From Tulasnella sp. 424 (Eukaryota > Basidiomycota > Agaricomycetes > Cantharellales > Tulasnellaceae), in contig WSUB01000178.1 in the NCBI GenBank assembly GCA_019633425.1, positions 1 through 64,000 of the forward strand: a stretch of DNA of 64,000 nt, read 5' to 3'. Every line of letters starts with the position of its first letter. The first letter of the stretch is position 1. The position numbers were made by a program, and so were the translations under genes. The notes under the pieces are model-generated. The model did no database searches and was not told the DNA's origin. It was given only the letters and a program-made list of their open reading frames with translations. Shown piece by piece: positions 4,525 through 58,740 of the stretch.

Positions 4525-5000
4525 CACGAGGTACCGCGGTAGGGGAGAAGCTGGGGGCGGGGGGAAGCGGACACTGACCACAACAAAGAACAACCCCTTC
4601 TAACAAAATCCTCTCTTTCCTTCCCAGCCCAATTGGTCAATCTCAGCCTCCCCTTCACTCAACTCCTTTGTTTTCTCATTGTCGATCGTCGCGTCAATCT
4701 CAAAATCGGGTTCTCTCGCCAAGCTTTCATTATATCCCACAGATTCCTCGATCGAACACTCACCCTCTTCTATTTGCAAAGCACCAGGGCCAACTTCTTG
4801 ATCATAGCTAAAAAGCCGGTGCAGTTTTCACACCCCGGGCATCCTCCGTAAGCGGACCGATGACGATCAGCCCCCAAAACCAAGGTTAACATGGAAACCA
4901 TTCACGACTAGTGTGGGAGATAGGGGAGCTAAATGCGGGGTTCACCCAGCATTGGTGATTTGACAGTCCTTCTATCTGTTTCGGGGTTGCCAGCTGCAGA
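4525..5000 (+). repeat. Direct repeat copy A (about 480 bp)
   Basis: Starts near CACGAGGTACCGCGGTAGG and ends near TTCTATCTGTTT. It is closely similar to 8587-9070 in the same orientation. Shared segments include CAACAAAGAACAACCC, TCGATCGTCGCGTCAATCTC and ACCATTCACGACTAGTGTGG. The copies differ by small indels and substitutions. The two copies bracket the bZIP-kinase chimera. It contains CT-rich leader-like sequence but no recognised protein. Confidence 0.75.
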
Positions 5001-5702: not shown

Positions 5703-7837
5703 CTACCCATTCAGCAGGCTAGCCATTGTCGGTCTCTTATTTGGATCCTCATTCCAGCATCTTAGCATCACGCCCCAATATGAGTCGGTGGACGGTAGCT
5801 CGGGATAGTCCGCCGGCGCAGGCGTCTTGCCGTTCATAATCGACATGATGATCGGCGGATCTGTACAACATTTGAAATATGGGGCTTTACCGGTCATGAC
5901 ATCTATTAAATATGAATTTTACTGTCATGGTTAGCTACATGAAGAGGAAGAATGGGAAGTTAGGAGACGTACGGAGCATTAACATCCCGAATGCATAAAC
6001 GTCGCTCATCGTCGTGTTCCGAGCCCCTTCCTCTAGAAGCTCTTTGGAAGAGTATCTCACAGTGCATTTAGCAGTAGCAGTGGTCGTAAAGCCGGATGGA
6101 ATGTCCATCATAAGCTCTACGTCGGAGGTTATGCGTACCACATTGAGTAAATGAATATCAGAAAGGGTCAAGACATCATAATATGCACCACGCACTGCTA
6201 ATCCCGAAGTCGCATATCTTAGCATCCCCTTCATCGCCCACGACAATATTTTCCTAAGATAAAAAGCAAAACTTAGTTTAGATTGCTGTCCGGCGTGGCG
6301 CAGGGTCTCACAGGTTTGATATCTGAGTGAACAACCAACGGTTCACGACCGTGGAGATAGACGAGTCCTTCCGCGACCTGAATTATCTGAAAGACGGAAC
6401 GACTTCGGTTTCTTAGCTTTATTATTAGGTGTTAGAAAATCTCACGAGCCGTCGGCGGTCGGCATTTGGATTCTTGGCGATGTATTCCATAATGTTGCCG
6501 TTCGAACACCTTATTTGATCCTGTCAGTGCCAGAGTCTGTAAAAAGCATATCAACAGAGCCGCCGTACCAAGGACTAATGAGACATGGAACCCCTTCAAG
6601 AGTAGCAAATCCTAGGAGTTCAAGGATACGAGGGTGCTGGCACGCCATCCAGATAGTAAGCTCCCTCTTGAATCGCTATGGTCCTCAGATTAGAGGTCGA
6701 ACGGAACGAGAACAACGAAACTAAAACACACCGTCCGAAGACGATCTGATTCCGGATCATCTGGTTTATTGGTGCCTACCACTCGGAGGACTTTGATGGC
6801 AATCTTGGAAAAGAAAGGGGGGAAAAAGGGGTGGGGGGAAGGTGAGGGGGTGTTATGGCGACTGTTAGATTCGGAGGCTCCTGGGAGCTACTAAGACAGT
6901 GCTCGGCTTACAGGCTTTCCAGTCTCAGTCATCTCTCCTTTCCAAACGTCGCTGAACCCAGCCAAAGCGTGCGCAGCATTTCCGCGCTTCCGCACAAGAC
7001 GACTCAAGTCCACCGCTTCAGTCGTGAATTTGTGTGAAACGGTGGGCATCGTGGTTGATGATTCCCTCAAGGGATTAGCATACAAGATAAGACTAGGATC
7101 CGAACCAACTCCGGCGAGAGGCTGATCGAGTGCCGCGTTTTGGAAGAATTGGTCCCAAGCGCTGAAATCGGTATAACTACTGTACATGGGGTTAGAGGCC
7201 AGGCTGGTGTAGGGTGAAGGTACGGCATCGGCTGGTGGGGGAGAGAAGAACGTTAACCTTGTAGGGCTGTTGTTGTATATGTTGTTGTTGCTATTGCCTA
7301 GGAATGTGCCCATCGACATCGGATTGTCGGTGCTACCCAGAGAAGGGAACGATAGGAGTGACGTGTAACCGGTGCCATTGGAAGTGGATCCACCGGCTTG
7401 TTGCTGGGAATTGAAATATTCGGGAGTTGCGCTAGGTACAGTTGACGGAGACCAGTATACTGGGGATGTGGCCGCAGTGGGATTTGTTCGGCTATTTGAT
7501 ACGGTGGGCGTCGGGGTACTGCGAGGGGTCTGAGCGGAGTTGAATTCGAACGAGAAGGCCGATTGCTTCAGCATTAAGTTCTCATTTTGGAGGCGTCCCA
7601 GAAGCTCTCGCAAGTTCGCATTCTCCACTTCCTGGGCAGATTTACTTTGCTCCAGCGTGGCGACTTGGTGCTCGAGCTGACATGCGTGAGTGAGTGCGAG
7701 AAATGCGATGGAAGATAGCGGGTGGGGGAGCAAATTAGTAACGGCCTCGGTTACGCGAAAGGACTTCGGCGGTGCTGATAAGGAGATTTCCTCACATCCC
7801 GAATACGCTTCTCCGACTGGGACAAACCGCGTTCCAT
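5703..7837 (-). CDS. Chimera: bZIP zipper and TF region fused to TKL kinase
   Basis: The 5' part encodes a leucine zipper (LEHQVATLEQ, then ENANLRELLGRLQNENLMLK). A Ser/Thr/Pro/Asn-rich region follows, typical of AP-1/Yap1-like fungal bZIP factors. The basic DNA-binding region (NRAAQRAFRERK type) is not found. In the same exon the protein switches to the array's kinase at KFTTEAVDLSRLVRK (about 7030-6990). It continues with HALAGFSDVWKGE, IAIKVL (about 6795), VVHSDIKP (about 6325) and CDFG (about 6215). It ends RPTMASLLNG. All key catalytic residues are present, so the kinase may be active, with the zipper giving dimerisation (inference). Proposed start ATG at 7837 (MERGLSQSEKRIRD) with an intron at 7795-7677; this 5' exon is tentative. 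It replaces the Kelch module of its neighbours. Confidence 0.7.
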
Positions 7838-8586
7838 GTTCGAAGGTGGGGAAAGGGAGAATTCTTCTCTGGCGGGAGGGACGGCCCCCTTTTTGATTGG
7901 TCTGCTTGGCTAATATTATGCTTTAGGCTGGGATAGATTGGGTGGGCGCGGCTGTGGGATTCGAGAGTTGCTTGCTAAGAAACTTGGATTCGTCGAGATT
8001 GGTGATTTGCTGAGAGATAGAGGTGGTATGTAGAAGTTCCAGAGATTACGAGGAAAATCCACAGAGAGCGGAAGGAGGAAGGAGATGGCGTGGTGGTTGT
8101 GAGAAAAGCTAAGGGGGACCCGGTATCCGCAGGTGTTTTTGTCTTGCAAAGGGGTTTAAGAATATCTGCTAGGATCGTGAACTAGACAGTGGGCTGAGGA
8201 TATGAGTGGGAGGGTGGCTCGGGAGGGGAACAAGGTATGGCGCGGAGAGTTGGTGGTAGATGGAAGCAGGGAAAGGTTATTTACGCAGATCGATGATCAT
8301 CTATCCTTTGTGTCTTACAATCTGGATCCAGTCTGTCATGCGCTCGACCTTAGCTAATTGACTATAACCATGGGTACACTGTGCGGACGACTAACACAAC
8401 CCGAAAGGCGGCAAGGTTCTCTGCTCGAAAGCTATCTTGCAATGTGGCTGCTCGGTGATCGGTCTCCATTCGAACTCCGCCGCAACCACCACCAATGAGT
8501 GGCAGGGCCCTCAGCGTCAACTGTCCTCTGAATGACGAACCAGCACCAGAGATGGAAATCAGGATTGCAGTGCTTAGTATAGACCC
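7838..8586. other. Leader/promoter region of the chimera
   Basis: On the minus strand this is pyrimidine-rich leader-like sequence with short frames and no bZIP basic region. No gene is recognised between the proposed ATG at 7837 and repeat copy B at 8587. The parent bZIP gene's 5' coding part is therefore absent here. Confidence 0.4.
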
Positions 8587-9070
8587 CACACGAGGTACCG
8601 CGGTAGGCAGAAGCTGGGGCGGGGGGCGGGGGCGGAAGCGGACAGTGACGGTTGACCACAACAAAGAACAACCCTTCTAATAAATTCATCCCATTCCTTC
8701 CCAGCCCAATTGCAATTGGTCAATCTCAGCCTCCCCTTCACTCATTTCCTTTGTCTTTTCATTGTCGATCGTCGCGTCAATCTCACATCGGGCGTTCATT
8801 ATAACAAAAAAGGTCCCATAGATTCCTCGATCGAACACTCGCGCTCTTCTATTTGCAATGCACCAGGGCCGACTTCTCACCGTTGAAAAGCCGGTGCATT
8901 TTTCACACCCCCGGCACCGTAGCGGACCGATGACGATCAGCCCCCAAGACCAAGGTTAACATGGAAACCATTCACGACTAGTGTGGGAGATAGGAAAGCT
9001 AAATGCGGGGCTCACCCAGTATTGGTAATTCTGACAGTCGTTCTATCTGTTTTGGGGGTACCATCTGACG
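8587..9070 (+). repeat. Direct repeat copy B (about 480 bp)
   Basis: Second copy of the 4525-5000 sequence in the same orientation. Small differences include an extra AATTGC near 8710 and a shortened segment near 8920. Similarity fades after CTATCTGTTTT near 9050-9070 and before CACGAGGTACC near 8590. Confidence 0.75.
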
Positions 9071-13697: not shown

Positions 13698-16661
13698 CTA
13701 TGCCTCTTGGGTCCGGGTACATCTTCGAAGCTAGACAAAAAGAGCATCAGTGGACCAAGAAGAGCTCGAGTGAAGGGGGGGTGGGGCAACGGCATACCTT
13801 ATCAAACACATCGACCATTCCGGGCCTCTTGGCTGGATCATCGTTCCAACATTCTCTCATTACGTCCCACAGTGGATCCGTGGCGGGGAGCTCGGGATAG
13901 TGTTCCGGTGGAGGTTTCTTGCCGCCCATTATCGCCATGATGACCTTTGGGTCCGACAAAGCTCCGGCGTATGGCAACTTGTTTGTCATGACATCTAGAG
14001 AGAGAGCGAAATGTCGGATGCATAACCCTTTATGAGAACGGAGATCATAGAAAACAAATGGGGCGACGTACGCAAGATCAACATCCCAAATGCCCAAACG
14101 TCACTCGATGTCGTGCTCATCCCGTCAAGATCTAGCATCTCCGGGGAAGAATACCTCAGCGTTCCCTTTACGGACGCAGTTGTAGTATACCCGGATGGGT
14201 TCTCCTGCATAAGTTCTAATGCATCCGTCAGATGGGTTTGGCGTGCCTTGTGTCAGAGATTCGAAGTAAACTACTTACTGCTGATCCCAAAGTCACATAT
14301 CTTGGCATTTCCTTCGTCGCTCACGACAACATTTGCCTGAGATATGAAAGCGAAAGTTAGCCCAGACTGTTATCCAACGTGGCGTGGTGTCTCACAGGTT
14401 TGATATCCGAGTGAACAACCGGCGGTTCACGGCCATGGAGATAGACGAGTCCTTCCGCGACTTGACTTATCTGAAAAATGGATCGACTTAGGATTCTTGG
14501 TTTTAGTGCTAGGTATCAGGAAAACCTACCAGTCGTCGGCGGTCGGCATTTGGATTCTTGGCGAAGTATTCCATAATGTTGCCGTTGGCACACCTGATTC
14601 ATTCCTCTTAGTGTTAGAGTCGGCGGAAAGCATCCCAACAGAGACGCCGTACCAAGGACTGATAAGACATGGAACTCCTTCAATATAAGCGTAGCCAAGG
14701 AGTTCAAGAACACGAGGATGCTGGCACTCCATCCAGATAGTAAGCTCCCTATCAAACCGCTATTTGCCTTCTGATTAGTGGTCGTTGGGAACGAAAACAA
14801 CAAAGCTGAAACGCACCGTCCGAAGGCGACCTGATTGCGGATCATCTGGACTACCCGTGCTCGCCACTCGGAGGACTTTAATGGCAATCTTAAAAGGGGT
14901 GAATACAACGACTGTTCATCCAGAGGCTCCTACAGAAGCGAAGACGAAGCTTGGCTCACAGGCTTCCCAGTTTCGGTCATCTCTCCTTTCCAAACGTCGC
15001 TAAATCCAGCCAAGGAGTGCGCAGCATCTCCCTGTTTTCGTACAAAGCGACTCAAGTCCACCACCTCGGTGGTGAATTTGAGTTTGTTGGTTTCGGTGGT
15101 GAACTGCAGTTTAGCGAGACTATCTCGAACGTAACCCGCTATGCCATAAGGAAGATGAGATGAGATTAATGTGATTGATTAATGATGATCGCATACCTCC
15201 TCGGGTCTCTGCCGTATGAATGTGCGTTTTGTTGCCTGTCTGTCCCCCCACGAGGACGAGTCGTGACTCGAGCGTTAGCAGGGTCCCGCTTTTGGTAGTA
15301 ACGGGGCAACGACCGAGCATCGCCAAGCTTCGCCAGGTATGATCTAGACATAAAAAATCATTTCAACGTCCGTGAATTCAGGAGCGAGACACATAACGAG
15401 ATACCATGGAAATTGAAAGCGAACGCGTGGTCCGTTCGAACATACACGCCTTCCTTGTCTCCAACGATCACACCACCAAATGAAAACATGTTATCTCCGA
15501 TAACCGTCGCGGTATGAGATGTTCGCGGTTGGGGAAGCATGCCGTGACATTGTGTTTCAGTCCAAGTTTCGGTGCGTATCTCAAATTTCCAAACGTCGTT
15601 AAAGTACTTCCTCCGGTCCCCATCGTCGGCGGCCTGACCCGCGAAACTAGATATTCCTTAATAAGAACCGCAGCAAAAACCATTCAGCACTTACATGTAG
15701 AGACATCCGTCATGATACACAGTCGAGTGATACGACCGAGGCTGTGGCCAAGGTTCTTTCTTAGGGATTTGTCTCCACCGAACGTATTCAATACCATCTA
15801 GTGGAAAAATGCATCAGAACTTTTCCTGATATTCTACATAATCCCTAAAGCTTACCAATTCCGAAGTCGATGCACCACATGTCATCCAGTTTGGCCCCTG
15901 TTAGTCCGCCACCCCAAAGCCAAATCGTGTTATCCACAATGATCAATGAATGTCCAAAACGAGGACCAGGATACGGCTGTGGTGGTCTGAGGTTCGACCA
16001 TTCTCGAGTATCTAGGCAAGGCATTAGACTTTGTAGGAAAGGACTTTCCGCACAGAAAGCGCTTACCGATGTTTAGAAAATGCAAATAGCTGTCGTCAAC
16101 ATTGCCACCAAACACTACAAGCACGCGTCCAGCGATGACTGCCCGATGACCCGTCTTGGCTTTCGGATTCGCACCACTTGTTTCCAAGCTAGTGAACGAC
16201 ATGTCGGTTGTTGACAGGAGAATAACGTCGTTCGTCCAGACTTCTGCCTTTTCAGGTGTGGTCGTACCGCCAAAAATGATGAACTCGCCGTCGGCATTCG
16301 GGATAGCCGTGCAGGAATGCTCCCAACGGGGAAAGACCGATTTCGTCTTTCCAAGGGACTCCGAGCCCTTCAAAGGCTTTACTGGCTTAAGCTCCGGTTC
16401 GTGCTCGGTCCATGTAAGGGCATACGGGACGAAGGGGCTAGTTTGCTTGGATTTATCGCTGTGCGACGGGGAAGAGCCATCGTTCACCGTAGTACTATTA
16501 TCACGTGAGCTGACGTTGCTGCGGGTGGTGAAGGCAACTCCCTCCAAGGGTTTGGTTACTCCTTCTGGGGATAGTGGTTCAGAGCTAGAGGTGGTGGATG
16601 GATCGTCCTGTCGCAGCTCGATACCAGAAGCGGAGGGGCGGGTGGCGCCGGAAGCTTCCAT
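13698..16661 (-). CDS. Kelch-TKL kinase paralog K3
   Basis: Start ATG at 16661 (MEASGATRPSASGIEL), followed by a Ser-rich leader. The Kelch module follows: PRWEHSCTAIPNADGEFIIF, RVLVVFGG, NTIWLWGG, NMFSFGG and LVLVGG. The linker LQFTTETNKLKFTTEVVDLS leads to HALAGFSDVWKGE. Kinase landmarks are IAIKVL (about 14880), WMECQHPRVLELLGYAYIEG (about 14730-14670), NGNIMEYFAKNPNADRRRL, VVHSDIKP (about 14410), CDFG (about 14290) and GTLRYSSPEML (about 14150). The C-lobe reads EHYPELPATDPLWDVM, then KRPGMVDVFDK. A final intron (GTATGC to TCTAG) leads to a short tail LRRCTRTQEA ending at 13698. K5 ends in a comparable LR-C-T tail, supporting this model. It appears intact and is the closest relative of the damaged K4. 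Confidence 0.82.
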
Positions 16662-17944: not shown

Positions 17945-20156
17945 CTAGCACAAGAAAGGGACTGTGGAGGAAGGAGGTGCAGCTCCGTGCCCGAAATGAA
18001 GGACCCTGGAGCTTCCGATCGAGCTCTCAGGCTTTGTCAGCCAGTCGATCGGAAGGGGTTTCGCGATAGGGGTTCTCCTAGGGGTTTCCAAATAGTTTAA
18101 TCGCCCAGAGTCGGTCAGTAACAGGCAACTCAGAGTAGTCTTCCGGCGACAGAAGGCTGTGGTCCGAGTCCATGATGGCCATAGACGTGGAACTCCTTCA
18201 ACACAAGCGTAACCTAAGCGTTCAGGAGCACGAGGATGCTGGCACTCCATCCGGATAGTAAGCTCCTTGTTGAACTGCTATATACTTGCCTTCTGATGAG
18301 TGGTCGTCGGGAATGAAAACAACAAGGACGAAACACACCATCTGAAGACGACTTGATTACGGATCATCTGGACTACCCGTTGTCGCCTCTCGGAGGACTT
18401 TGATGGCATATCAATAAGGGGAAATACGATGACTGTTACATACAGAGACTCCTACAGGAGCGAAGATGGAGCTCGGCTTACAGGCTTCCCAGTTTCGGTC
18501 CTCTTGCCTTTCTAAACGTCGCTAAGTCCAGCCAAAGATTGCGCAGCATCTCCCTGATTCCGTACAAAGTGACTCAAGCCCACCACTTCGATCAGGAATT
18601 TAAGCTAGTTGGTTCCGGTGGTGAACTGCAGTTTAGCGAGACTATCTCGAACGTAACCCGCTACGCCATAAGGAAGATGAGATGGCATTAGTTTGACTGG
18701 TTGCGATGGGCGCGTACCTGCTCGGGGCTCTGCTGTATGAATGTGCGTCTTGTTGCCTGTCTGTCCCCCCACGAGGACGAGTCGTGACTCGAGCGTTAGC
18801 AGAGTACCGCTTTTGGTAGTAACGGGGCAACGACCGAGCATCGCCAAGCTTCGCCAGGTATGATCTAAACATGAAAATCATTTCAACGTCCGTGAATTCA
18901 GGAGTGAGACACATGATGAGATACCATGGAAATTGAAAACGAACGCGTGGTCCGTTCGGACATACACGCCTTCCTTGTCTCCAACGATCACACCACCAAA
19001 TGTAAACATGTTATCTCCAATAACCGTCGCGCAGTGAGATGTTCGTGGTTCGGGAAGCATGCCGTGACATTGTATTTCAGTCCAAGTTTCGGTGTGTATC
19101 TCAAATTTCCAAACGTCGTTAAAGTATTTCCTCCGGTCCCCATCGTCCGGGGCCTGACCCGCGAAACTAAATATTCTTTAATAAGAACTGCAGTAAAAAC
19201 CATTCGGCACTTACATGTACAGACAACCATCATGATACACGGTCGAGTGATATGACCGAGGCGCTGGCCAGGATTCTTTCTTATGGATTTGTCTCCACCG
19301 AACGTATTCAATACCATCTAGTGAAGAAATGCATTAGACGTTTTCCTGATATTCTACATAATCCCCAAAGCTTACCAATTCCGAAGTCAATGCACCACAT
19401 GTCATCCAGTTTGGCCCCTGATAGTCCGCCACCCCAAAGCCAAATCGTGTTATCCACAACAATCAACGAATGTCCAAAACGAGGACCAGGATACGGCTGT
19501 GGTGGTCTGAGGTTCGACCACTCTCGAGTATCTAGGCAAGGAATCAGACTTTGTAGGAAGGACCTTCTGCCCAGAAAGCGGTTACCGATGTTTAGAAAGT
19601 GCAAATAGCTATCGTCAACAGTGCCACCAAACACCACAAGCACGCGCCCAGCGATGACTGCCCGATGACCCGTCTTGGCTTTCGGTTTCGCGCCACTTGT
19701 TTCCAGGCTAGTGAACGACATGTTGGCTGTTGACAGGAGGATAACATCGTTCGTCCAGACTTCTGCCTTTTCAGGTGTAGTTGTACCGCCAAAAATGATG
19801 AACTCGCCGTCGGCATTCGGGATAGCCGTGCAGGAATGCTCCCAACGGGGGAAGACCGGGTTCGGCTTTCCAAGGGACTTCGCGCCTTTTAAAACCTTTA
19901 CTGGTTTAAGCTCCGGTTCATGTTCAGACCATGCAAGGGCATATGGGACGAAGGGGCTAGTTTGCTTGGATTTATCGCTGTGCGACGGGGAAGAGACGCC
20001 GTTCGCCGTATCACGTGAGCTGGGGGTGGTGAAGGCAACTCTCTCCAAGGGTCTTCCTTCTAGGGATAGTGACTCAGAGCTGGCGATGGCAGATGGATCG
20101 TCCTGTCGTAGCTCGATACCCGAAGCTGAGTGGTGGGTGGCGTCGATAGCTTCCAT
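17945..20156 (-). pseudogene. Kelch-TKL paralog K4, kinase half destroyed
   Basis: Start ATG at 20156 (MEAIDATHHSASGIEL). The Kelch half is nearly identical in layout to K3 and appears open: WEHSCTAIPNADGEFIIFGG, RVLVVFGG, NTIWLWGG, NMFTFGG and LVLVGG. In the glycine-loop region the conserved Trp codon of SDVWKG is TAG (18514-18512), stopping translation before the catalytic lysine. Further on, sequence matching the N-lobe (ECQHPRAPERLGYACVEGVP, about 18250-18190) joins directly at about 18180 to C-lobe sequence (MAIMDSDHSLLSPEDYSELP). The catalytic loop, DFG and activation segment are lost, and the joint is out of frame. K4 can at most make a Kelch-only protein ending near 18515. The end at 17945 is the last stop of the decayed region. 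Confidence 0.8.
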
Positions 20157-53181: not shown

Positions 53182-53592
53182 TCAATTGAACGCTGGCTTG
53201 ATGTTCGTTCTCCTTTTATGGTCTTCTTCACATCCACTTTTACGCCAATCATCTTTATCTCATCTCGAATCTCGTTGGTAATTTTCCCTCGTTGACGAAA
53301 AATAATTAAAAGTACACGCCTTAGCCGAGGTACATAGTAGTACATCTAGATCATATCCCTTCTCGATCGGTTCTTTTCTTTTTCTGTTCGCTGCCTATCA
53401 TTGCTTTAGAGATGTATCTAGAAGTCAAAGGCATCCGCGTTTCTCGTGCCCCAGTCGGATCCTAAGTGCCCGACTCTGGTTGCGCAAGAAGTTTGATTAG
53501 TACTACCAAATTCACTGTCAGGGGTCCAGTCGCCTCGCCTTAATCAGCACCTCCACGTCCTCATCCCAGTCCTCTGCATCAAGATCGCTGCC
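53182..53592. other. Intergenic
   Basis: About 410 bases between the calnexin remnant and the first F-box gene's stop. The segment just below 53590 has a relative near 55510-55640, below the second F-box gene, so the duplication includes the 3' flank. No gene is seen. Confidence 0.4.
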
Positions 53593-55105
53593 TTAGTCCT
53601 CCTGACTGGAATCCGACATACTGGCATCCGACTCTTCATACTCCATGGTTTCGGTCTCTGGAGGCCCACCCACAACCCCTCGGGTTTCAGGCACATCGTA
53701 ACGTATCCGCTTCAATGGCTGTCCCAAAGACTTTCTGGTACGCGCAAACTCCAATATCAGGCCCTCCAGCTCCTTGCCTGCGATCGTGAGCTCCTCCAGG
53801 AGAGGACAAACAACTTGCTGTGGAAGAGATGGACGTCCTAGTTTTTGTCGGACCTCCTGCGAGGCAAATGGCAAAAGGTACTGAGACGCATTCATCTCTT
53901 CGTCGTAAGGAACACGAGGGAAGATGAGGTGGAGGCGTTTCAGCCCCACCAAGCTGCTAAAGAAGCGATCCAATTTGTCCAGTGACGGTGAGCGAATACG
54001 CGCAAATTTCAGAGACTCCAACAATGGAAAGCGACTTCCCAGACGCCCATCGTCGCCCGAGGTCAGGACTTCAATGCTAGGCGAGAAGTCGCTAAATTCC
54101 ATGTCGGCGATTTCGAGGTGCTTAAGGTTGGGCGCGTCGACCAGCCGAATGGTTTTGCTGAGCACATCCGGCGAATCGAAGCCCGTGTAGGTGAGCGCAA
54201 CGAGGGATGGCAGAAGACACGCGGGAGAGCGCTCGGATACGTCTTCGAGGTCTGCTCGCATTATTAGCCCGTCGGCGATTTGGAGGACCTCGAGCTGGGG
54301 TGAGGCTTGCAGCAAGTCCCGAAATTGGCCGAGGTTTGGCTTTGAACCTGATCTGACCATTAGTACCGCACCGCGAATCCACGATGACGAGACCTACGGT
54401 CAGGCATATAGCAGAGTTCCAGCTTCCGGAGGTTCTGGAAAGGATTGTTGTCCCATCCCAGTGGAATAGTCCACAGCGAGGCTGACCGCAGCCTGGGGAG
54501 AGAGCCTGGTCCGTCGAAGATCTCGTAGACCGGATAGTACCTTCTTATTAGATCATTTGAAAATGTAAACGTTTCCAGTAGTGGTGCTCGGATTCCCTTG
54601 AGCTGTGACAAGATGAAGTTGACTGCATGGTCGGAGTCACGTAGCATACAGTCAACCCGAAACCTGTGCCATCGCCGGGCTTCACTTGCTAGCAGGTACA
54701 TCATACCCTCGAACATCTCTGCGGTGCGTCTTGATAGCTTGACCCGAATATTAAGGGGTGCTTCTTTGGATAGACTGATCCGTTTCTGAAGCCATTTGAA
54801 TGCCGTCCGATCCGATATGTTGACACTCGCCCATACGGTAGGAGTTGTAAGGGCTACATCCTGCCAATATTTGCACACGCATGACACGAGCTATCAAGTC
54901 CGCCATCAGTCTCGATACCATCCAGCGTCACCCAAAGGGTTTGTCTCACCACTGGGAATTCCAGGTGGATACCTATATTTTCGTCGTCGAGCGTCGAGCT
55001 AGAGATCTTCTCAAGGTCTTGCCTGTACTGCTCCTGGATAAGCTCTACTTCAAATATGTAGGCGAGAAGCTCTCTTGGAAGCACTTGGTTGATCGTCATT
55101 GGCAT
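53593..55105 (-). CDS. F-box/LRR-like protein, tandem copy A
   Basis: Basidiomycete F-box family; presumed SCF ubiquitin-ligase adaptor, target unknown. Start ATG 55105 (MPMTINQVLPRELLAYIFEV) begins the F-box. An acidic insert follows, then LEFPV and an intron (GTGAGA to GATAG) to LVSCVCKYWQDVALTTPTVW, the second half. A helical/LRR-like region follows: LPRLRSASLWTIPLGWDNNP, then an intron at the PDRR/SGSKP joint. The last exon has LLQASPQLEVLQIADGLIMR, DAPNLKHLEIADMEFSDFSP, FPLLESLKFARI and LVGLKRLHLIFP. It ends in an acidic Ser tail at 53593. The start is chosen because the same Met and following residues occur in copy B, while upstream frames differ. It appears intact. Confidence 0.75.
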
Positions 55106-55645
55106 TAGGGAGGGGATGGTTGATGTCTTGTTGACTCTCTTGTGGAACAAACAACGGCAGGCATTGATCTCAAGACACGAGTCCCGCGCCAACTGTCGAG
55201 GCGGATTGTGCAAGACGCTCACGTCAAAGTGAGGAACAAGAACCGTATTTGTCCTCATGGAAGGGAGACAAATGTTGTTTTTACCTGTCTTAGAAGGCAA
55301 TCCGATAGAAACTGCAGGCTTCCCAGTTGGGAAAAAAAAAAAAAAACTTAGACGGGAGGAACGAAGTCGAAGCGGCTCGGGCATTTTCCGGTTCAGGACT
55401 TGCAATTCTCGATGCAAAGACGTCATGTAAGTAGCTAAGCGTATACTAGAGAATAACAGGAGGCGAGGGAGCACATGCATTCATCAGGGGGGACTTGCAG
55501 GGCTAGGCAGCCCAAGTACCCGACTCTGGTTGCACAAGAAATTTGATTAGTACTACCAAATTCCGTTGTCAGTGGTACAGTCGCCCTCGTCTTCATCAGC
55601 GCTGTCCACGTCTTCATCCCAGTCCTCTGCATCACGATCGCTGTC
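55106..55645. other. Intergenic between F-box copies
   Basis: Holds the leader and promoter of copy A and the 3' flank of copy B. A run of fourteen A lies at about 55329-55342. Sequence upstream of copy A (to about 55440) matches that upstream of copy B (about 57200-57500), so the promoter was duplicated with the gene. Confidence 0.45.
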
Positions 55646-57197
55646 TTAGTCCTCCTCACTGGAATCCGATTCCGTCAAACTGGCATCGGACTCTGAATAC
55701 TCCACGATTTCGGTCTCTGGAGGCCCACCCACAACCCTTCGGTATTTCTCACCCGCATCACGCACGTCGTAAAGTATCCGCTTCAACGGGTGTCCCAAAG
55801 ACTTTCTGGTACGCGCGAGCTCCAAAATCAGGCCCTCCAGCTCCGTGCTTGAGATCGTGAGCTCCTCCAGAAGAGGACAAACAACTTGCTGAGGAAGAGA
55901 CGGACGTCCCCGTTTTTGCCGGACCTCCTGCGAGGCAAACGGCAAAAGGTACTGAGACGTATCCATCTCTGCGTCGTAAGGAAAACGAGGGAAGATGAGG
56001 TGGAGGCGCTTCAGCCCCACCAAGCTGCTGAAGAAGCGATCCAGGATGTCCAGTGACGGTGAGTGAATACGCCCAAATTTCAGAGACTCCAACAATGGGA
56101 AGCGACTTCCCAAACACCCATCGTCGCCCGAGGTCAGAGCTTCAATGCTCGGAGAGAAGTCGGTAAATTCCATGTCGGCGATTCCGAGGTGCTTAAGGTT
56201 GGGCGCGTCGACCAGTCGAATGGTTTGGCAGAGCAAATCCGGCGAATCGAAGTCCGAGTAGGTGAGCGTGGCGAGGGATGGCAGATGAACTGGTTTAAGA
56301 CACGCGGGGGAGCGCTCGGATATGTCTGCGAGGTATACTGACATTGTTATCCCGTCGTGGATCCGGAGGACCTCGAGCTGCGGTGAGGCTTGCAGCAAGT
56401 CCCGAAATTGGCCGAGGTTTGGCTTTGAACCTGATCTGGCCATTAGTATCGCGCTGCAAAGCCACGATGACAAGACCTACCGTCAAGAATTTGCCAGAGT
56501 TCCAGCTCACGGAGGTTCTGGAAAGGATTACTGTCCCATTCCAGTGGAACATACCACAGCGAGGCTGACCGCAGCCTAGGGAGAGACTCTGGTCCGTCGA
56601 AGAGCTCGTAGAACCTTGGAGCTGAATAGAACCCTCCTATTATATGGTTAATTTTCAACGTTTCCAGTAGTGGTGCTCGGAGTCCCTTGAGCTGTGACAA
56701 GATGGGGTCGGCTGCAGAGCCGGAGTCACATAGCATACTAGTACAGTCAACTTGAAACCTGCGCCATCGCCGGGCTTCACTTGCTAGCAGGTACATCATA
56801 TCCTCGAGCATCTCTGTGCCACGTTTTGACAGCTTGACCCGAATATCAAGAGAGGTTTCTTTGGATAGACCGATCCGTTTTTGGAGCCATTTGAATGCCG
56901 TCCCATCCGATACGCTGACACTCGCCCATATGGTAGGAGTCGAAAGGGCTACATCATGCCAATATTTGCACACGCACGACACTAGCTATCGAGTCCGTCG
57001 TCAGCCTCGATACTATCCAGCGCCACTCAAAGGGTTTGTCTCACCACAGGGAATTCCAGTTGGATACCTTTTCCGTCGTCGGACTCCGAGTCAGAGTTCT
57101 CCTCAAGGTCTTGCCTGCACTGCTCATGGATAAGCCCTACTTCAAATATATAGGCGAGAAGCTCTCTTGGAAACGCCTGATTGATTGTTTTTGGCAT
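55646..57197 (-). CDS. F-box/LRR-like protein, tandem copy B
   Basis: Close paralog of copy A with the same exon plan. Start ATG 57197 (MPKTINQAFPRELLAYIFEV). After the acidic insert and first intron comes the frame with SCVCKYWHDVALSTPTIWAS. Then LPRLRSASLWYVPLEWDSNP, and the last exon with LLQASPQLEVLRIHDGITMS, DAPNLKHLGIADMEFTDFSP and LVGLKRLHLIFP. Compared with copy A it has small in-frame insertions (for example KPVHLP, and AGEKYR near the end) and a longer acidic Ser tail ending at 55646. Both copies are open, so both may be expressed. Differences cluster in the LRR-like half, where targets would bind. Confidence 0.75.
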
Positions 57198-58740
57198 TAG
57201 GGAGGGGATGGTTGCAATTGACGTCTTGTTGACTGTCTTATGGGACAAACAACGGCAGGCATCGAAACGAGTTCCACACCAGGTGTCGAGGCGGATTGTG
57301 CAAGACGCTCATGTCAAAGTGAGAAACGAGAGTCGTATTTGTCCTCAGGGAAGGGAGACAAATGTTACTTCTACCTAACTGCAGGCTTCTCGGTTGGAAA
57401 AAAAACTCCCGAGAGGGGGGAACGATGTCTAAGAGGCTCGGGCATTTTCCGGTTCAGGACCTGCAATTCCCGATGCAAAGATGTCATGTAAGTAACTAAG
57501 CGTATACTATAGCATCTCAGGAAGCGAAGGAGAGACTCGAGCAAGAAAGCATGAACACATGCACTCATCAGGAGGGACTTGCAGGGCCAGGCGGCCCTCG
57601 CCGAAAGCGGCGCATGGTGCATCAAATCACGCGTGCTCTTGCTTTGGAAAGTTGCATCGCCGATACCAGAGGCTTAATGTCATTCTTACCCCCGCTAATT
57701 CCCCAGCAAAACACGATAACAAAAGCATCGTCCAGTTTGCTCTCGGATTGAGTACATCCGTTGCCTCACTTCGCATTATCAAGTTCGTCCGCAACCCATA
57801 CTAGCGACAATTTCTCTCCTTCGGCCTTAACACCTGGGACATTCATTCACTCCCGAAGATCATCAGGGGCTTTATTTTGATCTCAGTGCGAGGTCGCCGG
57901 TCGTGGCGAGCACTTTACAGAGAATATGAAGCGTGCATCGCATAAGTTGATTTGACCTAACCTGCCACAATCTAAAGATCTGAGAGAGAAAAGGAGGGTG
58001 TGGAATACGTGTAAAATACTTTGGGCTCGGGAGACCACCACAAAGCGTTCCAACTCAGCGTCAGTCAGCACCACGTTTAACGCAGGCATTTCTTTGATGT
58101 AGGAAGTTTCGGGTGCAAGGAGAGAAAGTCTAATACGAGCCTTTGTGAGTGATGGAGTTTGTGATGGCCCCACCTGAACGAAGGCTTGAAAAGCGCATCA
58201 AAGGGAACTAGAGCTTTTGGCACCAGGAGACTTGATATATCCGCCTTAGCGCCGTGATACAATGACTGCCGTAGTTATTCTGAACTTCTGGAGGTTCGAA
58301 AACAGGGCCGCCGTCCCCAAGTGGCGGCTTGGCGGGGGCTCTGCTTTCGGTGAAACATACTGCCTGAAACGCCACCAATGAGGAAGTCTTCCGCCTCGTC
58401 CCGTAATGATTTGATCGCCTTGGCTCACGGCCAGCGTTGATCAAAGAAGACGCGTTTTCATTGACCCCGGGATTTTCGCCTCCGATCGCGAGTAGGTTGC
58501 CGAACGATTACCTTTCGGAAGGAGGGATTGCGTGCCTATATTGAGGGAGTGCTAGGTGGGGGGGCCTCTGCAGGATACAAAGCGCCTTCGACATAGCCTT
58601 GGGCTTTTGAGCCACAAGGAGCGGACAAGGCTTTTTTGCTGAGGGGGGCGCAGAGAATGAAAGCCGAGTCGGGGAAAGTCTCACGCGGCGGACCGGAAAT
58701 TGAAAGCTCAGGGACCCCGACTGCACCTCTCTCCCTCTTT
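57198..58740. other. Intergenic, possible gene fragments
   Basis: About 1.5 kb. Minus-strand frames at 58444-58208 and 58173-57883 might be exons of a small unrecognised gene, but no domain or clean splice pair ties them together. The left 300 bases are the copy B promoter. Confidence 0.3.

Follow-up and report, generated by a model that had tools for sequence, protein, structure and literature searches.

In oncogenic fusions between a dimeriser and a kinase, a dimerising segment is joined somatically and in frame to an intact kinase, and in the mixed-lineage kinases (MLK3, DLK, ZAK) a TKL-type kinase shares one chain with a leucine zipper that, to our knowledge, was not taken from a bZIP factor. 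For MLK3, a TKL kinase, dimerisation through the zipper is needed for autophosphorylation, and the zipper of the MLK type lies C-terminal to the kinase, as set out in PMC4880868. The fusion gene described here likewise combines, in its gene model, a TKL-type kinase and a leucine zipper in one chain, but the zipper is N-terminal, and unlike the oncogenic fusions the gene is genomic and exists in five copies. With the AP-1/Yap1/Pap1 bZIP factors, to which its parent (P0016) belongs, it has in common the zipper, the tail that follows, the intron that precedes the zipper and the 5' leader, but it lacks the basic region and the C-terminal part of the parent (with its PAP1-like stretch) and possesses a kinase instead. 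With the Kelch-TKL kinases (for example P0003) it shares the kinase domain, exon structure and location, but carries a zipper and AP-1 tail where the Kelch propeller was. An expansion of TKL kinases in Laccaria bicolor has been published, and the words kelch, bZIP and fusion are absent from the main text of that paper, in the portion available (PMC2838846). A search of the open-access literature, with most subscription journals outside its scope, returned no paper on such a fusion.

The locus is a natural example of a kinase that exchanged its targeting half for a dimerisation module of known source. Both the parent and decayed sister copies persist in the genome, which allows the birth of a chimeric signalling gene to be followed directly, step by step, and a sharp question is posed, namely whether the borrowed zipper addresses the kinase to the factor from which it came. 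The genome searched, that of an orchid-root fungus, comprises 46.8 Mb in 448 contigs; the window, meaning the whole stretch of 64,000 nucleotides that was analysed, lies on contig C88 (79,971 bp), and the other contigs compared are C209 (34,629 bp), C321 (14,235 bp) and C242 (25,227 bp).

Gene structure and the source of its two halves

On the minus strand, positions 7837-5703 of the window form one frame of 508 amino acids in nine exons, stop-free and with GT-AG introns throughout in the spliced model, arranged as follows.

5703..7837, minus strand: whole fusion gene, ATG at 7837, stop at 5705-5703, 9 exons, 508 aa (spliced model)
7815..8214, minus strand: what is left of the AP-1 5' coding part, with the 5' leader and some 200 bp of DNA that precede the start codon in the parent (blastn; alignment)
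7796..7837, minus strand: exon 1, MERGLSQSEKRIRD, the part of AP-1 exons 1 and 2 spared by a 314-bp deletion (parent alignment and spliced model)
7677..7795, minus strand: intron inherited from the AP-1 parent (parent alignment and spliced model)
7676-6912, minus strand: exon 2, the zipper exon, open across the joint (spliced model)
7563..7676, minus strand: leucine zipper, LEHQVATLEQSKSAQEVENANLRELLGRLQNENLMLKQ (alignment with parent; heptads)
7035..7562, minus strand: AP-1 tail, Ser/Pro/Asn-rich, whose end at the joint repeats the PTVS motif in short form
7034..7035, minus strand: fusion joint within exon 2, placed to about a codon (21-nt comparison with copies)
6912..7034, minus strand: kinase N-lobe part of exon 2, HKFTTE...GKP (comparison with kinase copies)
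6732..6803, minus strand: exon 3, IAIKVLR (spliced model)
6569..6675, minus strand: exon 4, RFKRELTIW...ISPW, skipped in deposited P0001 (spliced model; P0001 alignment)
6446..6509, minus strand: exon 5 (spliced model)
6312..6386, minus strand: exon 6, HSDIKP catalytic loop (spliced model)
6196..6253, minus strand: exon 7, DFG (spliced model)
5973..6116, minus strand: exon 8, activation segment (spliced model)
5703..5902, minus strand: exon 9, end of the C-lobe and stop (spliced model)

Exon limits were set with the sister kinases in view, so the openness of the exons is partly by construction, which is not the case for the 765-bp exon that runs from zipper to kinase. An earlier, sequence-only reading had seen an in-frame exonic fusion there, and exon 7676-6912 does run stop-free across the joint. 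That reading put the joint near 7036; its location inside one exon stands, and its position is now set within about a codon of 7034/7035.

By alignment, the first half of the fusion derives from a Yap1/Pap1-like AP-1 gene. The parent bZIP gene, which the sequence-only reading had suggested seeking elsewhere in the genome, is present intact on C242 (P0016, FRC04_006725), and the zipper part of the fusion is 76% identical to it over 206 amino acids (E 5e-86), which together with the heptads bears out the earlier recognition of a Yap1-like zipper. The parent protein matches bZIP_1 (E 1e-8), with a sub-threshold PAP1 match at 535-582, and its basic region (KRKEQNRAAQRAFRERKEKHVKD) sits in the exon immediately before the zipper exon. 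In the fusion the basic DNA-binding region is absent, as had been claimed: relative to the parent, a 314-bp deletion removes the last part of coding exon 1 together with an intron and almost the whole basic region, and a domain profile search found no bZIP_1 match in the fusion protein at E up to 0.1. Absent too is the C-terminal cysteine-rich redox region, since the fusion departs from the parent upstream of it. Blastn matches to C242 comprise window pieces 7815-8084 and 8137-8214. At the parent's ATG (C242:17753) the fusion has GTG and the parent frame is broken; the sole start codon of the fusion differs from that of the parent, as does its first donor. The intron at 7677..7795 has the acceptor CAG as in the parent and the donor GTGAGG as compared to GTAAGT. 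The normal PTVS motif is also kept, farther upstream than the short second copy at the joint.

PF07714 covers the kinase part (E 7e-38) from position 12 to position 255 of its 258, in line with the earlier view that it is apparently complete, and Lys, Glu, HSD and DFG are all in place. By position, IAIKVLR in exon 3 presumably holds the catalytic Lys, and RFKRELTIW...ISPW in exon 4 what we take to be the Glu of helix C. EGFR and RIPK1 are the best solved relatives, with CTR1 also among the matches listed. HSD replaces HRD in the fusion and in each of the 12 relatives, out of 15 compared, for which the catalytic-loop exon gave a match, and because of this replacement activation-loop autophosphorylation may presumably not be the switch of the fusion kinase. 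The proposed loss of the Kelch half also held, in that a domain profile search found no Kelch match in the fusion protein, while the array sister P0003 has Kelch (177-405) upstream of the same kinase (522-776). Other copies of the Kelch-kinase array occupy the first ~32 kb of the window; copy E (window 18000-18604) is decayed, with stops in N-lobe exons, and in copy D the intron that follows DFGIS may be of the GC-AG type (window ~14240-14280).

The database entry for the fusion protein is FRC05_003302 (P0001), under Tulasnella sp. 425; it is identical to the spliced model at 473 of 508 aligned positions. The sole difference in the aligned part is that exon 4 is skipped, a few other residues standing in its place; the C-terminus also differs from that of the model. 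With exon 4 included the Pfam kinase match begins at 12 of the profile, and without it at 83, so P0001 is probably wrong at exon 4. The record is not demonstrably independent: the sp. 424 and sp. 425 records may be nearly identical, and P0001 is not counted as independent evidence. A search with the AP-1 half found 13 proteins, of which P0001 alone is listed with a kinase domain, and with the whole fusion as query it alone covers both halves among the best 120 of 534 proteins.

Sister copies and a probable single origin

The zipper-kinase arrangement is not unique to the window. Four further copies, in each of which the zipper directly precedes kinase sequence, recur on two contigs as diverged pieces of 69-89% identity.

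C209a, 0.85-1.44 kb: the zipper is joined at the intron that follows; the N-lobe exon is gone, and there is a one-base shift
C209b, 8.4-9.46 kb: one stop counted, in the N-lobe exon; those in the last two kinase fragments stem from misplaced matches and are left out of the count
C321a, 1.2-2.0 kb: zipper stop; kinase exons missing, the N-lobe exon alone present (44 codons)
C321b, 7.1-8.36 kb: kinase exons with a stop and several gaps that shift the frame; stops in zippers

All four sisters are damaged, and the window copy is whole. The same 314 bp are missing, relative to the parent, from every one of the five aligned copies. In the 21 nt that end where the kinase part begins, C321b agrees with the fusion at 17 positions and C209b at 16, as compared to 7-9 for 11 Kelch-kinase copies, and the chance of at least 17 matches in 21 is ~1e-7 to 2e-6; C209a has no exon joint. 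On the kinase side, C209a (dS 0.26) and C321b (dS 0.33) are closest to the fusion. For eight intact Kelch-kinases dS is defined and ranges from 0.67 to 1.76, and for two it is saturated, dS saturation against copies C and G leaving no omega for those; copy E (dS 0.69), being damaged, was excluded from the intact-copy comparison.

Because the deletion is common to five copies and the joint to C209b and C321b, a single fusion event that was then multiplied in the array is probable, with the common origin of C321a and C209a resting on the deletion and, for C209a, also on the kinase side. Against a single origin stand the joint of C321a, which at 9/21 is no better than controls, and the kinase sides of C209b (dS 0.58, from partly misplaced matches) and C321a (dS 0.79, over 44 codons), neither of which is close. 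Independent fusions at each locus are less likely than one event, given that the deletion is shared by all five and the joint by two. A retrocopy origin of the zipper is ruled out by the kept pre-zipper intron and 5' flank. Since that intron and ~200 bp of parent upstream DNA were carried along, the copy was made at the DNA level, and part of the AP-1 promoter may have come with it.

The sequence shows a real chimeric gene, in which an AP-1 duplicate without its basic region is fused, within an exon, to the kinase half that comes from a Kelch-TKL kinase gene. The unit of AP-1 leader, zipper and kinase is present five times, most simply through a single non-homologous join that was then multiplied in the array, and of the five the window copy alone stayed open. 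The second PTVS copy would be in keeping with a longer AP-1 piece set ahead of an older, shorter joint, as in C209b and C321b, whose zipper exons are in tandem.

Those tandem zipper exons lie directly before the kinase at C209:8.8-9.46k (L028, two copies) and C321:7.36-8.36k (L031, three copies), with AP-1-intron-like sequence between them and stops or frame damage in both units. A repeat of ~500-600 bp flanks the fusion gene on both sides (window 8452-9067 and 4525-4996) and recurs on C209 and C321, where it is also found shortly before the zipper units. Contigs C209 and C321 may be neighbours, because P0009 (C209) and P0003 (C321) are both listed with one deposited contig of 49,361 bp.

Constraint on the open reading frame

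Branch omegas were estimated with a small home-made codon model on fixed trees. For the zipper (64 codons, 5 sequences, two of them incomplete), omega is 0.36 on the fusion branch (p 0.02 versus 1), 0.05 on the parent and 0.80 on the other copies. For the kinase (218 codons, 6 sequences), it is 0.65 on the fusion branch against a background of 0.24 (2dlnL 7.5), and this 0.65 is indistinguishable from 1 (2dlnL 1.3). When the tail, with codons from the window and parent alone, is added to the zipper, omega is 0.58 (p 0.15 versus 1) with branch lengths free, and 0.42 (p 0.0001) if the parent and fusion branches are assumed to be equally long. The pairwise omega of fusion and parent, 0.27 (0.18-0.40), probably reflects the parent in large part. 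Across 199 columns the outgroups disagree at 23, and in the rest amino acid changes number 31 in the fusion only, 3 in the parent only and 2 in both.

Neutral divergence of 0.26 per codon was taken as 0.087 per site, a rate obtained from the kinase alone and applied to the entire gene. A neutral copy at this rate would have all 508 codons stop-free with probability 0.023 and all 32 splice bases untouched with probability 0.054; the corresponding values are 0.103 and 0.194 at 0.05 per site, and 0.003 and 0.017 at 0.12 per site. The joint chance of integrity is ~0.001 (0.00005 to 0.02 over the rates), before frame-shifting indels, and for the zipper exon alone the neutral probability of remaining stop-free is 0.04 to 0.27. 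On these estimates, the reading is that of a fusion gene kept open with relaxed or shifting constraint.

Zipper pairing and its possible consequences

The heptad register was placed by hand on the GCN4 pattern. All d positions are as in the parent (LLQLLL), and the core a positions change from VVSNLN in the parent to IVKNLN in the fusion, the e positions from EEARQK to EEERQK and the g positions from QKELE to QSELE. According to PMC4335062, a-a' and g-e' pairs matter generally in bZIP pairing, and Asn at a pairs with Asn or Lys. In a fusion homodimer Lys would face Lys at a3, and in a pair with the parent it would face Ser, while the Glu of the fusion at e3 (Ala in the parent) would face the parent's Lys at g2. 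Because of these changes at a3 and e3, few residues as they are, pairing with the parent AP-1 would be at least as plausible as self-pairing.

The reading preferred here, to which we give an even chance, is that of a chimeric gene whose product acts through zipper pairing on a partner, in place of Kelch-mediated targeting. A zipper without a DNA-binding region would bring the kinase onto that partner, most likely the parent AP-1, a second fusion copy or both, and the kinase would phosphorylate or titrate AP-1, or be activated by proximity. A fuller version, in which one germline fusion, then multiplied, gave a kinase that uses the copied factor's pairing surface to dock on and control AP-1, is put forward tentatively and as a whole is unlikely.

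Other accounts divide the same evidence differently. Were the zipper to pair two copies of the fusion, the kinases could activate each other without a signal, and the parental d positions, the complete kinase domain and the precedent of MLK3 (PMC4880868) are consistent with such a constitutively active homodimer, as the sequence-only reading had proposed; it is nevertheless improbable, for the Lys at a core a position (Ser in the parent) would meet a second Lys, HSD stands for HRD in the fusion and its relatives, and constraint on the kinase is relaxed (omega 0.65). That relaxation, set beside the constrained zipper (0.36 against a drifting 0.65), speaks for a zipper-only antagonist, in which pairing with the parent AP-1 would keep that factor from binding DNA and the kinase would be a passenger in decay. 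The loss of the basic region from all five copies and the change of A to E at e3, which would face the parent's Lys at g2, also agree with an antagonist, but the kinase is still without stop, frameshift or broken splice site in the spliced model, and we consider this account doubtful.

It is possible, if still rather unlikely, that the chimera is non-functional, heading for decay and open by luck. The kinase omega does not differ from 1, four of four sister copies are damaged, and chance integrity reaches 0.02 at the lowest rate tried (0.103 x 0.194); weighing against luck are a joint chance of ~0.001 (0.023 x 0.054) at the rate estimated for neutrality, with frame-shifting indels uncounted, and a zipper omega below 1. 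An artefact of assembly or annotation, either two adjacent genes or misjoined reads, could be suspected where the case rests on gene models and array repeats are hard to assemble, and an assembly error was what the sequence-only reading had named as fatal to the fusion. It is very improbable, and assembly error was rejected, given that C209 and C321 carry further, diverged zipper-kinase copies, of which two share the joint; the same protein is also deposited under a second isolate, in the record labelled sp. 425, which may not be independent.

Elsewhere in the window, a tandem duplication joins segments 53461-55471 and 55511-57532, which are 85% identical, and one frame within 53461-57532 weakly resembles an F-box-associated LRR family, at a level below threshold.
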